Positions 3,601 to 33,448 of a stretch of 53,582 bases of DNA are shown one piece after another. Location: positions 1 through 53,582 of the forward strand of contig JAIYAU010000014.1 in assembly GCA_027488865.1 (NCBI GenBank), in the 5' to 3' direction. Below the pieces are notes generated by a model. That model was not told the DNA's origin and did not search any database. It saw only the letters and a list, made by a program, of their open reading frames with translations. Both the position numbers and the translations under genes were made by a program. The first letter of the stretch is position 1. Each line of letters starts with the position of its first letter. The DNA is from Cytophagaceae bacterium. GTDB taxonomy: Bacteria; Bacteroidota; Bacteroidia; Cytophagales; UBA9547.

Positions 3601-6600
3601 GGTGACAGAATTATTCCAAGCTGTTACTGTTGATCCTGATGTTGAGACATTGGCATCTGCTCTATACCACGCAGATAAACCCTTTTTAATTCCACCAGGA
3701 GCTAATGAAACTGGCAAAACCGTTATTCGCACTAGCGCAGTATCACATGTACTAGTATTTACACTATCGCAAACTCGATACTGCAATTGTGCCAATCCAG
3801 TAAAACCTGTAGTAGCAGTAAATAACAAATTACCCGTACTTTTATTATATAGCCATGTTCCAGCTGCATTGGTAAAGGTGCTTTGAATACCTACAGTAAC
3901 AGGATCCATGTCATACCAAGATTTTAAAAGGGTAGGATAAGTATCGTTGGTTGAAATATCGGGAATCATTTTAAAGCTAGACTCATTACAAGTATTTATT
4001 TCACCATTTATGGAAATTGGAAAATCTGCAACCGTAAAAAATTGAGTACCGACAAAATTATAGGAAGCAGTATAAGATGCTATACCATTCACCACTTCTG
4101 CTACTAGTGGGATATAGGTATCAGATGCATTAAAGGTTTCATCTGACGACACTACCAAGCACTTGCCTGAAATCGTGCCTATTGAAGTTGGGAACGCTAC
4201 TTTAACATTACCAACGGTGTTGGTCTCTAGGGTGCGCCATATTCTTAGCAAGCTTCTTCCTATGCCTCCGTTGCTATGCACAGCCGTACCATTGGCTCCG
4301 AAGGTGAGCGCAGCGTTATTATCACCCCATGTCAAAAATGACAAATTTGCGGTAAAGGAATTTACGTTAGAAGAGTTATTGCTTGCAATGGTAGTTAATC
4401 CAATTTTAACTGTTGAGTCTGATTGACTTGTAGATTGCTTTTGATTAAGTGCTGATGCATCATCTCTGCCAATACCAGCAATATTGTTTTGGTAAGTAGT
4501 AGATCCTGACCAAATTATTGAACCGTTTGACGCTTGATAATTAATTGGTACTGCATTTGATCCTAATGAAATGCCATATTTGATGGCCAAATAGGTTTGT
4601 ACCCTTTGCCGACCACTATTTCCTAATCTGGCACCAAAATAAATTATTTCTGCAATTCGTCCATTTAACCTAAACCCACTTCCTTGTCCTCCTACATTAA
4701 ATTGACCATTTAAATTATTACCAAATCCTGGATTAATAATTGTGGTTGTTCCGTCTAATAACCCAGAGGTAAAAAGACTATCTATAGTACTGGATGTATG
4801 AGAAGACCCAATAATAGCCCTTCCTTCGATATTAGTAGTACCAATGACCATACTGCCCATTAAGGAATTGGGATAATCCGTTCTTAACTTAAAGTTTGGT
4901 GCAGAATAAGTTACCTCAAAAGCAAACCTTGAAGTTATACCGCTATCCTCCCATTTGGTTACAATACCAGATTGTGTTCCAGATGTATTTGATAATACTA
5001 CAAAAACAGAATTATTTCCATTTCTTAAAAAATTATATCCAGGTTGGTTTATTTGCTCAAAATAATCTGTTCCATCGAATTCTATGGCCGGATTATAATT
5101 AAAACCACGTAGTTTCAACAAAGGAGTATTTACAACACTTGTTAAGTTTACGCCACCATTTACAGCATTATTCCACGCAGTAACATTGCCTCCCGAGGTA
5201 TTTACGTTAAAATCAGATTTATACCAAGCCTTAAGTCCGGATTTAATACCACCTGGAGCGTTAGAAACTGCAGAAACTGTAATTTTGGCTAAAGCGGTAT
5301 CACACACACTAGGGTTTAAACTGTCACATACTTGGTAGTTAAGTTGGGCAAGACCAGAAAAACCTGGTGAAGCAACAAAAACCAAATTTCCTGTAATGTT
5401 ACTATATTGCCAAGTACCTGCCGCGGTGGAAAAAGAAGTTTGAACACCTACGGTAAGTGGATCCATATCGTACCAAGTTCTTCTTAGCATATTTATATAT
5501 GAGTCATTACTTGCCAAATCTGGCAAAACGACAAAGCTTTCTTCATTACAGCTACCAGTTTCACCATTGATATTCATGCCAAAATCCGCAACCGCAAAAT
5601 ATTGTACGCCATTATTAAAATCATAATTAGCTGTGAGTGAAGGAACGCCATTTACTACTTCTGGTGTTAAGGCTATGTAAGTATCTGTACTATTAAATGT
5701 TTCGTCATTAGAAACTACCAAATATTTACCTGAAGTACCAATGGAGGCAGGAAAAGCCAATTTCAACGACCCAACTGTGGCAGTTTCTTGAAGTCTCCAA
5801 ACCTTGTTAGACCTAGCCCCTAAGGCCCCAGTGGTAAAAATAGCAGAGCCAGCAGCGCCAAAATTCATATTTTGCCCATTGTCGCCCCAAACCACAAAGC
5901 TGTTATCATTAATTAAGGCATTGGGATTTAAAAGACTACTTGCTGCTATGGTACCCCTACCTACTTTAAGGGTAGAATCTACTTGGCTATACCCTTGCCT
6001 TTGATTTTGCGCAGAGTTGTCGTCACGAGCCAGACCAGCAATGTTGTTTTGATAGGTGGTCGATCCTGTCCAAATAACGTTGTTGTTAGAGGAAATATAA
6101 TTTACAGGTCTCGAATTAGAACCTAAGGTAAAGCCGTATTTTAGTGCCAAATAGGTTTCTACCTTTAATCGATTTGCGGCATTAAGGAGCTCTCCATAAT
6201 AAATTACCTCTGCTACTTCTCCAATATAAGAGTAGGCACCGTTAGAATTGGCGCCAATAGAAAATAGCCCAGTCTCAGCACTATTTGCGGATAAGGTGGT
6301 GGCCAATCGCGATTCTGATAATCCTGAAACAAACAATGAATCAAAATTTCCATTGTTATTAAAGGTAAATAGAAAGGGCTTATTGTTAACTGACTGTAGG
6401 TTTAAGACTGATGTAGTGTTGTTAGGGAAATCGAATCGGATAAAATTATCTGCCAGTTTATTTGTTTCTACTGTAATTCTGTTGGTTGTAGGATTAAGGT
6501 TACTCTCCCATTTAGCAACTACTCCTGATCCTATTGGCGAATCTTGAGCCTTTGTTATTACAACAAAAACTGTATTGTTGTTATTGTTAATATAGTTGGT

Positions 6601-6918: not shown

Positions 6919-8469
6919 TTACCCATTTTTGAATTTTACTACCAATTCGTTATTAATGTAACTTAAATCCACATTGAGCAACTGAGAAATTAGACTGGCT
7001 TTTTGCCAAGCACTACTTGAAATTGCTTGATATGATGGTTTAAATCCATTTGAACTTATTCTAAGTGCTGTTTTTAGTTCATTATTATCCACAACCCCAT
7101 TAGCTGATTCCCAAGAATCAATTTCCAAACTTTCTCTTAGAGCTTCCCAAAAATTAGCATACAGTGACTTATCTGTGAACATGTTAGCTTTGAGCTCATT
7201 TATATTTTCAACCTTCAAGTGTTCTGGTAACAAACTGGCCAATGAATAATTTTCATTTTCAACGAACGAACTCAATTGAAGATTAGGCTGCGAAGTACCT
7301 ATCTGTTTTGCCCAAACAAATAAATCTATTACAATTGACCGCAAACTTAATATTCTATTTTCCTTTTCGTGCATTGTTTGTATCATACGCTCATTGGACT
7401 TTGATAAAAGTGACTTTTGCAATCTTATTTTTCGAGCAATTCCATAAAAGACAATTGCCAATATTAGGATGGTCACTATAATAATAATATAAATAAGTGC
7501 TTGACGTTTCGACTGCATTTCAATGGCCTTTCGCCTGTTGGTTTCAGCCTTTAATTTGGCTTCCATAATTTTATTAACAGAATCCTTTTGCATCAAGGAG
7601 TATCTAAATTTGTCCATCATGAAAAATATTTTCTTTTTGGATTCATTAAATTTAACAATATTCTCTTCTAGGTCTTTATGCAATTTTGCCTCATATTTTA
7701 ACAACTCATTTCGTTCAGCTATTGATAAGCCCTTTTCATTATTCAATCGTTTTGTTATTGCCTCTAATTGTCTGCGTAACTTTAAATCAACGTCGTCAAT
7801 TTGTTTTCTTTCAAACGCCAGCTCATCTTCAATTTTACCAAATTCTTCTGTGTAAGCTTGAAACGTAGTTTTTTCTACTGGTGTGGCAGTTGGGATAGTA
7901 TCTGCTTGTGTTGGCACAGGGGGTTCTATAACTGTGTTTGAGGTAACTAGTTTGGTAGGTTGTTTTAAAATAAGTATGTACTCTTTACCCTTAGGAGATA
8001 AAGACACAACGACATCGTTTAATACAAAATCTTTATTATTTGGTAATTTACCTGGAATAGAGACCTTCCCCATTTCGTTGGTAACATAGCTTTTACCTTT
8101 AAACTTTATTCCATATTTCTTTGCTGGACTTTTATCTTCAAACAAGATTTGCACCAAAACCTCCGGCACAACTAGTTTTCTTAAAGTAATATAAAAAGCT
8201 TTTTCAGTTTCTTGATATTCATAGTCATCTACCGCATATTCTTCTGAATAAATGTCAACATCACAAGGTATTTCTAGTTTTTTGGACGGCACAAATGAAA
8301 ATACACCCTTTTTATTAGTCACCTTCGCAGGATTTTTATCTATACTCAATTTTTGATTTGGTAATGGAAGATCTTTTTCTGATCTAACATAGACCTTAAT
8401 AGAATCAAGCGGACCAGCATATACCCCAAAGAATGCTGTAAAAGTTAATATAAAAAATACTAAACGCAT
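6919..8469 (-). CDS. Membrane-anchored coiled-coil protein with exported beta domain
   Basis: The frame is open from 8499, but the ATG at 8469 gives a clean signal peptide (MRLVFFILTFTAFFGVYAG) and is preferred; the protein is then 516 residues. The exported N-terminal half has beta-rich segments resembling carboxypeptidase-regulatory repeats (KVTNKKGVFSF and YVTNEMGKVSIPG). A long charged coiled coil follows (FGKIEDELAFERKQIDDVD onward). One strong transmembrane helix (YIIIIVTILILAIVFYGIA) comes next, then a second short coiled coil and a cytoplasmic tail of about 150 residues with no kinase or DNA-binding motif I recognise. The topology resembles a sensor or scaffold spanning the inner membrane. 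It is directly upstream of the giant adhesin and may assist its expression or export; that is inference. The 267 bp before it hold no gene. Confidence 0.75.
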   Translation of the reverse strand: MRLVFFILTFTAFFGVYAGPLDSIKVYVRSEKDLPLPNQKLSIDKNPAKVTNKKGVFSFVPSKKLEIPCDVDIYSEEYAVDDYEYQETEKAFYITLRKLVVPEVLVQILFEDKSPAKKYGIKFKGKSYVTNEMGKVSIPGKLPNNKDFVLNDVVVSLSPKGKEYILILKQPTKLVTSNTVIEPPVPTQADTIPTATPVEKTTFQAYTEEFGKIEDELAFERKQIDDVDLKLRRQLEAITKRLNNEKGLSIAERNELLKYEAKLHKDLEENIVKFNESKKKIFFMMDKFRYSLMQKDSVNKIMEAKLKAETNRRKAIEMQSKRQALIYIIIIVTILILAIVFYGIARKIRLQKSLLSKSNERMIQTMHEKENRILSLRSIVIDLFVWAKQIGTSQPNLQLSSFVENENYSLASLLPEHLKVENINELKANMFTDKSLYANFWEALRESLEIDSWESANGVVDNNELKTALRISSNGFKPSYQAISSSAWQKASLISQLLNVDLSYINNELVVKFKNG

Positions 8470-31964: not shown

Positions 31965-32657
31965 ATGAAATCAAAAAGACTTCATTATCTTCAGCATGTA
32001 GCTTATGAAGGTTTAGGTTATATTGGCGATTGGGCTGTCCTTAATGGATTTGAATTAACTTCTACAGAATTTTATCAAGAACACACTTTACCGAGCACCA
32101 CAGATTTTGATTGGTTGGTGGTGATGGGTGGTCCCATGGGTGTGTATGACGAAGAGAAATATCCTTGGCTTATTACTGAAAAACAGTTGATAAATAAGGC
32201 TATTGATGAAAACAAAGTGGTTATTGGTATTTGTCTTGGTTCTCAATTGATTGCTGAGTCACTAGGTGCCAAAGTGTTTCCTAATGAATACAAAGAAATT
32301 GGATGGATGCCCATTTCAATAAAGCCTACCGCTTTATTTAATTTTCAAACCAACCTTACAGTATTTCATTGGCATGGAGATACTTATAACTTACCACTTA
32401 ACTGTGAATTACTCGCCTCAACGAGTGTTTGTCCACATCAAGCTTTTATTTACAACAAAAAAGTAGTAGGCATACAATTTCATATTGAAGTTAGCCCTGC
32501 ATCCGTAAAAGAAATGGTTTTGTATGGCAAAGACGAACTGGTAGAAGCTCCTTATATTCAAGATACTACATCCATCTTAAGCAATATGGACTTTTTTGAA
32601 ACAAACAAAGAAGTATTATTTCATTTGCTAGATACTTTACATGGTGAAAAACTGTAA
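31965..32657 (+). CDS. Class I glutamine amidotransferase-like protein
   Basis: The 230-residue protein has the full triad of class I GATase domains: nucleophile Cys90 in IGICLGSQLIA, and His173 and Glu175 in IQFHIEVSP. The oxyanion segment is VVMGGPMGVYDE. It resembles the stand-alone GMP-synthase-like GATases of Bacteroidota and gamma-glutamyl hydrolase-like enzymes. No synthase domain is fused or adjacent, so it may hydrolyse a gamma-glutamyl bond or serve an unlinked partner. It starts 64 bp after the MBOAT stop on the same strand and ends 20 bp before a bidirectional terminator. Confidence 0.9.
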   Translation: MKSKRLHYLQHVAYEGLGYIGDWAVLNGFELTSTEFYQEHTLPSTTDFDWLVVMGGPMGVYDEEKYPWLITEKQLINKAIDENKVVIGICLGSQLIAESLGAKVFPNEYKEIGWMPISIKPTALFNFQTNLTVFHWHGDTYNLPLNCELLASTSVCPHQAFIYNKKVVGIQFHIEVSPASVKEMVLYGKDELVEAPYIQDTTSILSNMDFFETNKEVLFHLLDTLHGEKL

Positions 32658-32677: not shown

Positions 32678-32700
32678 AAAAGCCCCAAATTGAGGCTTTT
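32678..32700. terminator. Bidirectional terminator between GATase and tRNA-like gene
   Basis: Arms around AAAAGCCCC (32678-32686) and the complementary GAGGCTTTT (32692-32700) pair with one mismatch and a short AT loop. On the minus strand the stem is followed by TTTTTTATTTT, a strong intrinsic terminator 2 nt beyond the tRNA-like 3' end. On the plus strand it can also end the GATase message. Confidence 0.8.
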
Positions 32701-32702
32701 AG

Positions 32703-32816
32703 CTGTAGGGAGGGGAGTCGAACCACCTACGAGGAGGTTAATCTGTCGAAACAGACCATCCCTTTATCCTCACCCGAGAGACCGTCGGGCACGTCTGCCA
32801 ATTTCGTCACCTTACA
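32703..32816 (-). tRNA. Aberrant class II tRNA-like gene, isotype undetermined
   Basis: Reading from 32816, a cloverleaf of about 114 nt can be drawn. The acceptor TGTAAGG/CCCTACA has one A-C mismatch. A leucine-like D-arm follows (ACG stem, loop AAATTGGCAGA, CGT stem). A perfect anticodon stem CCCGA/TCGGG encloses the 7-nt loop CGGTCTC. The T-loop TTCGACT has a stem with one T-C mismatch, and the apparent discriminator is G73. Three things are abnormal: position 33 is G instead of the near-invariant U, the nominal anticodon GTC disagrees with the leucine-like body, and the variable arm is about 45 nt with a GAGGA/TCCTC stem and an inner TCTGT-TTCG-ACAGA hairpin. A consensus promoter and a terminator flank it, so it is probably transcribed. 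It could be a specialised tRNA, a non-translational tRNA-like RNA, or a decaying gene. Confidence 0.6.
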
Positions 32817-32863: not shown

Positions 32864-32894
32864 CAAAATTAATAGACTGATTTATTAATTCAAA
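32864..32894 (-). promoter_or_regulatory. Consensus promoter of the tRNA-like gene
   Basis: On the minus strand TTTG (32894-32891), 19 nt, then TAATTTTG (32871-32864) matches TTTG-N19-TAnnTTTG exactly. The inferred start near 32857 gives a 5' leader of about 40 nt before the tRNA-like body. Confidence 0.7.
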
Positions 32895-32968: not shown

Positions 32969-33448
32969 ATGATACCAAAACAGGCTCAAAATTTAGAAAT
33001 TGATAATATAGATCTTAAGATTTTATCATTATTAATGCAGGATGCCACCATGCCATATACTGAAATAGGCAAACAAGTTTTTGTTTCTGGGGGGACGGTA
33101 CACGTACGTATGAAAAAAATGGAAGAATTAGGCGTAGTAAAAGGTTCACAGCTTATTATTGACTATAGCAAACTTGGTTACGATATCATCGCCTTCTTAG
33201 GAATTTATCTTCAAAAAAGTGATCTGTACGATGCTGTTGTTGTACAACTAAATGACATACCAGAGATTTTAAGTTTAAATTACACTACTGGAAATTATAG
33301 CATCTTTGCCAAGATTATTTGTAGGGACACAAAACACCTCATGGAAATATTACATAACAAAATACAAAAAGTGCAAGGTATTGAACGAACAGAAACTTTT
33401 ATCTCCTTAGAAGAACGTCTTAATAGACAATATGAATTGGTTAAATGA
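32969..33448 (+). CDS. Lrp/AsnC-family transcriptional regulator
   Basis: The ATG at 32969 (MIPKQAQNLEIDNIDLKIL) is preferred to the TTG at 32948, which lies inside the promoter box; the product has 159 residues. The N-terminal HTH is standard (DLKILSLLMQDATMPYTEIG, then GGTVHVRMKKMEELGVVKG). The C-terminal RAM domain follows (GYDIIAFLGIYLQ to TFISLEERL), which in this family binds amino acids and forms octamers. It stands alone; likely targets are its own promoter and perhaps the divergent tRNA-like gene. Start choice, length and motif order are all typical. Confidence 0.94.
   Translation: MIPKQAQNLEIDNIDLKILSLLMQDATMPYTEIGKQVFVSGGTVHVRMKKMEELGVVKGSQLIIDYSKLGYDIIAFLGIYLQKSDLYDAVVVQLNDIPEILSLNYTTGNYSIFAKIICRDTKHLMEILHNKIQKVQGIERTETFISLEERLNRQYELVK

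Follow-up and report, generated by a model that had tools for sequence, protein, structure and literature searches.

The window, i.e., the whole 53,582-nt stretch of DNA analysed here, carries one member of a previously unrecognised family of tRNA-like RNAs that is conserved in many Bacteroidota and in some phages. The element is very likely a functional RNA, and the positions of its parts and flanking elements are given in Table 1. The initial annotation had described an aberrant tRNA-like gene with a leucine-like D-arm, a perfect anticodon stem, a TTCGA T-loop, G at position 33, a nominal GTC anticodon, G as the discriminator, and a variable arm of about 45 nt with a TTCG hairpin. The element is confirmed on the minus strand, and all of these features held. 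The acceptor is TGTAAGG/CCCTACA with a single A-C mismatch, the anticodon stem CCCGA/TCGGG is a perfect 5-bp helix, and the variable region is 44 nt long including the UUCG-capped hairpin, with a variable arm of 41 nt. In the window copy and in three relatives from the family, the T-stem is better represented with one or two U's bulged out.

Table 1. Parts of the tRNA-like RNA in the window and elements flanking it.
Feature	Coordinates	Strand	Basis
tRNA-like RNA (5' end at 32816, G73 at 32703)	32703..32816	minus	Member of the covariance-model family; compensatory changes
Acceptor 5' strand (32816-32810; U1, G2 first), then U8, G9 and D-stem 5' strand	32804..32816	minus	Sequence
Leu-like D-arm	32791..32807	minus	Sequence; D helix covaries
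Anticodon-like arm, loop CGGTCTC at 32784-32778 (G33, nominal GTC)	32773..32789	minus	Covarying helix and loop statistics
Structured variable arm: V1 (4 bp), 4-nt bulge, V2 (3 bp), internal loop, V3 UUCG hairpin	32731..32771	minus	V1 and V2 covary; V3 by eye
T-arm with bulged U, loop TTCGACT	32711..32728	minus	Covarying helix
Acceptor 3' strand, G73, encoded C74 (at 32702)	32702..32710	minus	G73 and C74 in 99/99 copies
Promoter TTTG-N19-TAATTTTG	32864..32894	minus	Sequence; consensus enriched upstream of host copies
Terminator-like hairpin with T run	32678..32700	minus	Terminator scan
AsnC/Lrp-family regulator gene, divergent from the RNA	32978..33448	plus	NCBIfam, PDB match, conserved synteny

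A covariance-model and homology search across Bacteroidota had been proposed in the initial annotation, with compensatory changes in relatives named beforehand as the test, and absence from relatives or scattered decayed copies as the refuting outcome. The family was found in many Bacteroidota, the compensatory changes are present, and the refuting outcome did not occur. By blastn, the window copy matches 7 of 10 family genomes including its own, with whole-length relatives in four of them (68-71% identity in G004, G005 and G006; 79-81% over two separate pieces in G007). In two further family genomes the match spans just 20 nt, and one of these matches belongs to an ordinary tRNA-Leu (L008). 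The window genome is the sole genome of its genus in the sample. A covariance model (R1) built from five MAFFT-aligned sequences separated members in 20 genomes (69-98 bits, 115-171 nt) from other matches (at most 63 bits, 82-90 nt), and the two best checked non-member matches are tRNA-Leu by ARAGORN (L062, L067). With a second model built from 55 copies (R2), at E <= 1e-15, the RNA occurs in 93/118 genomes of the window's order (>=90% complete) and in 68/395 genomes of its class, 53 of which lie outside the order. At 1e-13 the class scan gives 75 genomes, the 7 extra ones scoring 59-62 bits like ordinary tRNA-Leu. The phylum scan found the RNA in 23/247 genomes, all 23 in the same class as the window. 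These R2 scans scored 9-31 candidates per genome and absences are thus soft; in G023, counted as absent in the order scan, a contig end truncates the copy. The only match in G021, a genome of the order that was counted as positive, is 78 nt long and scores 70.5 bits (G021:C23:55336-55413); it has perhaps lost most of its variable arm.

A pattern scan returned at least 119 stretches, with hosts including Hymenobacter, Dyadobacter, Spirosoma, Algoriphagus, Cyclobacterium, Pontibacter, Fulvivirga, and Saprospiraceae, all of which are Bacteroidota. ARAGORN made no tRNA or tmRNA prediction overlapping any member over 191 loci. The Rfam tRNA model RF00005 gave no match on members in the window and 15 further loci, and no family of Rfam 15 reached its gathering score on the same elements. 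The window copy had no blastn match in phages or plasmids, and a Dyadobacter copy had none in plasmids. The initial annotation knew of no described tRNA of this shape, and no description of this RNA was found in the open-access literature searched.

The conserved structure is carried by compensatory changes. In five sequences aligned by MAFFT only, 96.3% of cells are paired and 9 of 27 pairs are changed on both sides, a level that 0/500 shuffles reach, and sliding the pairing partners destroys the structure. When 102 distinct copies, drawn from several families of the class, are aligned by fitting to the covariance model, 98.5% of cells are paired and 20/27 pairs are changed on both sides (0/500 shuffles). 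Compensatory changes are seen in each of the six modelled helices, including the two of the giant variable arm. The 102 copies keep the cloverleaf, with a 7-bp acceptor, a D-stem, a 5-bp anticodon stem, and a 5-bp T-stem. The single-sequence fold of the window copy is not stabler than that of shuffles (z 0.84; 155/200 shuffles fold at least as well), and the case therefore rests on conservation in relatives.

The variable arm has a constant core made up of a 4-bp V1, a bulge that is mostly 4 nt long, a 3-bp V2, and an internal loop with the consensus GATAAA / CTAA. V3 can be a short hairpin or anything up to a large domain, and the arm reaches up to about 100 nt in other members, far above the class II range. 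The V3 motif GG(G/A)T(T/A/G)GACCAC is found in 97 of 195 unique copies (52 host, 45 viral), a set that includes pattern-selected loci. Tandem copies occur in 18/76 loci. In two tandem copies of locus L039 (1674-1807 and 1854-1987) the anticodon arm is replaced by a TCCCGATARCTATCGGGA-like palindrome, which is also inserted in the variable arm of L122:5244-5407 and L108:5002-5152; it is possibly a mobile palindromic repeat.

Three further readings of the element were dropped. Mimicry of an anti-Shine-Dalgarno sequence by the anticodon-like arm was rejected because the stem covaries away from it (e.g., CCCGA/TCGGG, CCCAC/GTGGG), and pairing of the loop UCUC with the V1 strand was rejected because V1 changes while the loop stays. 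An intron-bearing tRNA-Leu was also considered; the genome already has tRNA-Leu with TAA, TAG, CAA, and GAG.

Fixed and free nucleotides were counted in 99 unique copies obtained by alignment or model and never by pattern, as the pattern itself fixes positions 32 and 35-38. These remain from 105 rows after removal of 3 identical rows, 1 with N, and 2 with the rearranged anticodon arm of L039. U35, C36, G73, C74, U1-A72, and G2-C71 are fixed in 99/99 copies and C38 in 98/99, and the anticodon-like triplet is always NUC. Position 34 is G in 84, U in 6, C in 6, and A in 3 copies, and in some loci all of the counted copies are non-G. Position 33 is U in 74, G in 19, C in 5, and A in 1; G33, named in the initial annotation, is thus a minority state of the family, which corrects the picture given there. 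Position 37 is U in 86, C in 9, G in 3, and A in 1, and position 32 is C in 68 and U in 31. Decoding tRNAs have U33, a purine at position 37, and a fixed anticodon, and the family misses these criteria across the 99 copies. Positions relevant to decoding drift, while the aspartate determinants stay, with the exception of G34 in 15 copies.

The strong aspartate determinants are G73, G34, U35, C36, and C38, with G2-C71 in addition (PMC9976931). The G1-C72 pair of bacterial tRNA-Asp is also said to matter for AspRS (PMC9976931), and this criterion is unmet by the family. U1-A72 confers amidation of Asp-tRNA, whereas G1-C72 with U20a prevents it (PMC9976931), and U1-A72 as a determinant for GatCAB is described in a second study (PMC4206432); the pair is present in all 99 copies. 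Bacteroidetes are among the bacteria that have GatCAB, AsnRS, and GlnRS but no asparagine synthetase, with the warning that U1-A72 and GatCAB alone are no proof of tRNA-dependent asparagine synthesis (PMC4206432). Among the 35 tRNAs that ARAGORN predicts in the window genome, only those for Asn and Gln and an odd second tRNA-Tyr, 3 in all, have U1-A72. The pair is G1-C72 in tRNA-Asp, and C74 is encoded in 34 of the 35. Ordinary tRNA-Asp and tRNA-Glu are both present. The same genome has a small cluster of odd low-scoring tRNAs beside the normal set (Leu TAG, Ser GCT, and Tyr GTA with U1-A72; G000:C36:2288-2709, L319), possibly a tRNA cluster of a mobile element.

The element was also claimed to be flanked by a consensus promoter and a terminator, and the promoter sequence and a terminator-like site are present. 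The full promoter consensus, which is of the Bacteroidota type, lies upstream of 23/54 and 24/93 host copies, against 0.20 and 0.31 in shuffles, and upstream of 1/46 viral copies, against 0.07. These are plain letter shuffles, not dinucleotide shuffles. A sigma-70 scan used another consensus and is no test of this promoter. The terminator scan found one site against a shuffle mean of 0.5, which is weak evidence taken alone.

The gene divergent from the RNA encodes a regulator of the amino-acid-sensing AsnC/Lrp family. Among NCBIfam models AsnC fits it best, scoring 154 bits against a cut-off of 227 that it does not reach, and its best PDB match is 2cg4 (AsnC). A homologue is divergent and close in 37/44 other loci of set A5, 44/80 named host loci, 16/39 further loci of the named scan, and 26/37 loci of the class scan. 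Every Lrp-positive locus in the set of 80 named loci and in the class-scan set has the divergent arrangement, and in the largest neighbour cluster the regulator is upstream of and opposite to the RNA in 78/78 loci. An adjacent regulator is missing in 36/80 named, 11/37 class-scan, and 72/72 viral loci. In 26 hand-picked genomes, with relatedness and genome size ignored, a close ortholog (51-72% identity; others at most 33%) is present in 12/13 genomes with the RNA versus 3/13 in which no RNA was detected. The former include several in which the two do not adjoin. Two genomes of one genus vary jointly, G037 having both the RNA and the ortholog and G065 neither. The exceptions are G073, G011, and G025, with the ortholog and no RNA found, and G014, with no ortholog and an RNA whose variable-arm core is degraded (L057). 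The second commonest neighbour, which lies past the regulator in 32 loci (e.g., L015:117-1484), is a gene that we take to be SufB-like. The gene convergent with the RNA in the window (31965-32657) resembles class I glutamine amidotransferases, with all models below cut-off, and is not among the frequent neighbours of the family.

Copies of the RNA are also carried by phages. The viral contigs are read as phage contigs because terminase, portal protein, ThyX, and PhoH are among the neighbour proteins. Of 72 contigs selected by pattern, 69 have an uncut copy (>=96 bits); in one other the copy is cut and scores 95.7 bits, and the remaining two carry a fragment at a contig end. Among 67 scored viral loci, another tRNA or tmRNA is present in the stretch in 30, with three or more in 21. 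In 15/67 the RNA lies 3-7 nt from an ordinary tRNA on the same strand, and its ends therefore look processed as tRNA ends. None of the 124 host loci has a tRNA or tmRNA within 300 nt of the RNA. One phage copy had no blastn match in phages, and another has a whole-length match of 71% identity in an unannotated 636-kb record of an uncultured phage (LR756504.1:133311-133455). The phage tRNA arrays also contain further tRNA-like elements (L281:5063-5185 and 5268-5412; L232:6141-6262 and 7681-7830; L236:4907-5051; L280:3000-3090), with the acceptor AGTCAGG/CCTGACT, a Leu-like D-arm, and a T-arm but no clear anticodon arm. Their 5'-end pattern is found in at least 120 viral stretches, which may include ordinary tRNA-Leu.

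The family comes close to several known RNAs. It shares the D-arm type, T-arm, 7-bp acceptor, 5-bp anticodon stem, and encoded C74 with the class II tRNA-Leu of the same genome. In contrast, it has G73 instead of A73, U1-A72, G2-C71, a NUC loop with a pyrimidine at position 37, and the enlarged variable arm with a conserved core of its own. G73, U35-C36, C38, and mostly G34 are shared with tRNA-Asp, and U1-A72 with tRNA-Asn, whereas the class II body, giant variable arm, U37, and lack of G1-C72 set the family apart from both. The selC*, allo-tRNA, and tRNA-Sec-like types have lengthened acceptor and anticodon stems, a criterion that the family does not meet with its 7-bp acceptor and 5-bp T- and anticodon stems; here it is the variable arm that is enlarged. 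tRNAs with non-canonical arms do exist, and some are unusable in E. coli translation (PMC7609411). The tmRNA identity is likewise not met, as ARAGORN called no tmRNA over the 191 loci. tRNA-Other of Bacillus cereus, a pseudo-tRNA reported to be non-functional in translation (PMC3399842), is similar as a tRNA-like RNA, a likeness that involves no sequence comparison. It is described at a B. cereus genomic island and within larger transcripts, whereas the present family occurs in many Bacteroidota with a regulator as neighbour.

The initial annotation had inferred a specialised or non-translational tRNA-like RNA. This is supported, though its functional half (transcription, charging, and use outside translation) stands by inference only. 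The best explanation overall, which we hold tentatively and would not yet bet on, is a non-decoding acceptor of aspartate that is possibly amidated to asparagine under AsnC-type control. In this model, an RNA derived from tRNA-Leu would be transcribed from its own promoter opposite the regulator and would mature like a tRNA, with C74 encoded and CCA completed. That the acceptor end is fixed points to a 3' end that matures and can be charged, an inference from sequence alone. AspRS would read U35, C36, C38, and usually G34, together with G73 and G2-C71, and charge the RNA with aspartate, while GluRS may act instead where the triplet reads UUC or CUC. Aspartate acceptance, or perhaps glutamate acceptance in a minority of lineages, is as likely to be wrong as right; against it, the strong determinant G34 is replaced in 15/99 copies and G1-C72 is absent. 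GatCAB could then convert Asp-RNA to Asn-RNA because U1-A72 replaces the G1-C72 of true tRNA-Asp. Amidation is the more doubtful step. gatB was matched in 22/22 genomes with the RNA (over cut-off in 21; in the other, partial at the end of a contig), but it is also over cut-off in 11/17 genomes without it, with kinship and genome size ignored. Among 14 control genomes it was not matched in E. coli and Bacteroides ihuae.

That the RNA does not decode is likely, and its exclusion from the ribosome is inferred: normal decoding would be barred by the lack of constraint at positions 33, 34, and 37 and by the bulk of the variable arm. The variable arm is predicted to dock a dedicated partner, and the regulator would tune the RNA level to amino-acid supply; a divergent AsnC-type regulator fits aspartate/asparagine supply. 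No charging, transcript, or protein data stand behind any of these steps. A bolder reading, no more than possible, is a non-ribosomal RNA scaffold for making asparagine, and in some lineages perhaps glutamine, in Bacteroidota. Here, AspRS would load the RNA, GatCAB would amidate its cargo, the variable arm would hand the product to a partner, the AsnC-type regulator would set the dose, and phages would carry copies.

Among the rival explanations, an uncharged regulatory or decoy RNA remains possible. An AsnC-type regulator would drive a tRNA mimic, which would act either as an sRNA or by titration of tRNA-binding proteins, modification enzymes, or anticodon nucleases. Divergent regulator-sRNA pairs are known, including gcvA/gcvB and oxyR/oxyS. 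The divergent regulator and the phage copies favour this rival, the tandem copies would give dose, and tRNA-Other of B. cereus is a non-translating precedent (PMC3399842). On the other hand, the fixed U1-A72, G2-C71, and G73-C74 and the way in which phage arrays pack the RNA like a tRNA point to a 3' end that matures and is aminoacylated. It is unlikely that the RNA is a seryl acceptor, charged by SerRS on the basis of G73 and the length of the variable arm, for use outside translation. SerRS does use G73 and a long arm (PMC7609411), and the tRNA-Ser genes of the window genome have G73; however, the D-arm is of the Leu type and not the Ser type, and the fixed U35, C36, and C38 would be left unexplained.

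A tRNA specialised in translating GAN codons, perhaps for a controlled substitution of Asn for Asp, has in its favour the invariant NUC triplet, U33 in 74/99 copies, and phage copies among tRNAs. It is improbable nonetheless, as a purine at position 37 is found in only 4/99, position 34 drifts across the Asp/Glu boundary, the variable arm reaches lengths far above those of class II, and tRNA-Asp and tRNA-Glu of the ordinary kind are already encoded in the window genome. A decaying pseudo-tRNA is all but excluded. The acceptor mismatch, G33, and ordinary fold energy of the window copy would fit decay, as would the degraded core of L057 in a genome without the regulator ortholog, but the family-wide compensatory changes, promoter enrichment, and synteny contradict it for the family.

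A structured RNA that spans several families of one bacterial class and phages with tRNA arrays thus escapes both ARAGORN and the Rfam tRNA model. It looks like a tRNA that has kept its amino-acid identity and given up decoding, tied to an AsnC-type regulator. If the favoured reading, the non-decoding aspartate acceptor, is true, it would account for part of the work of GatCAB in Bacteroidota and would provide a testable system with deep evolutionary data for the roles of tRNA outside translation.
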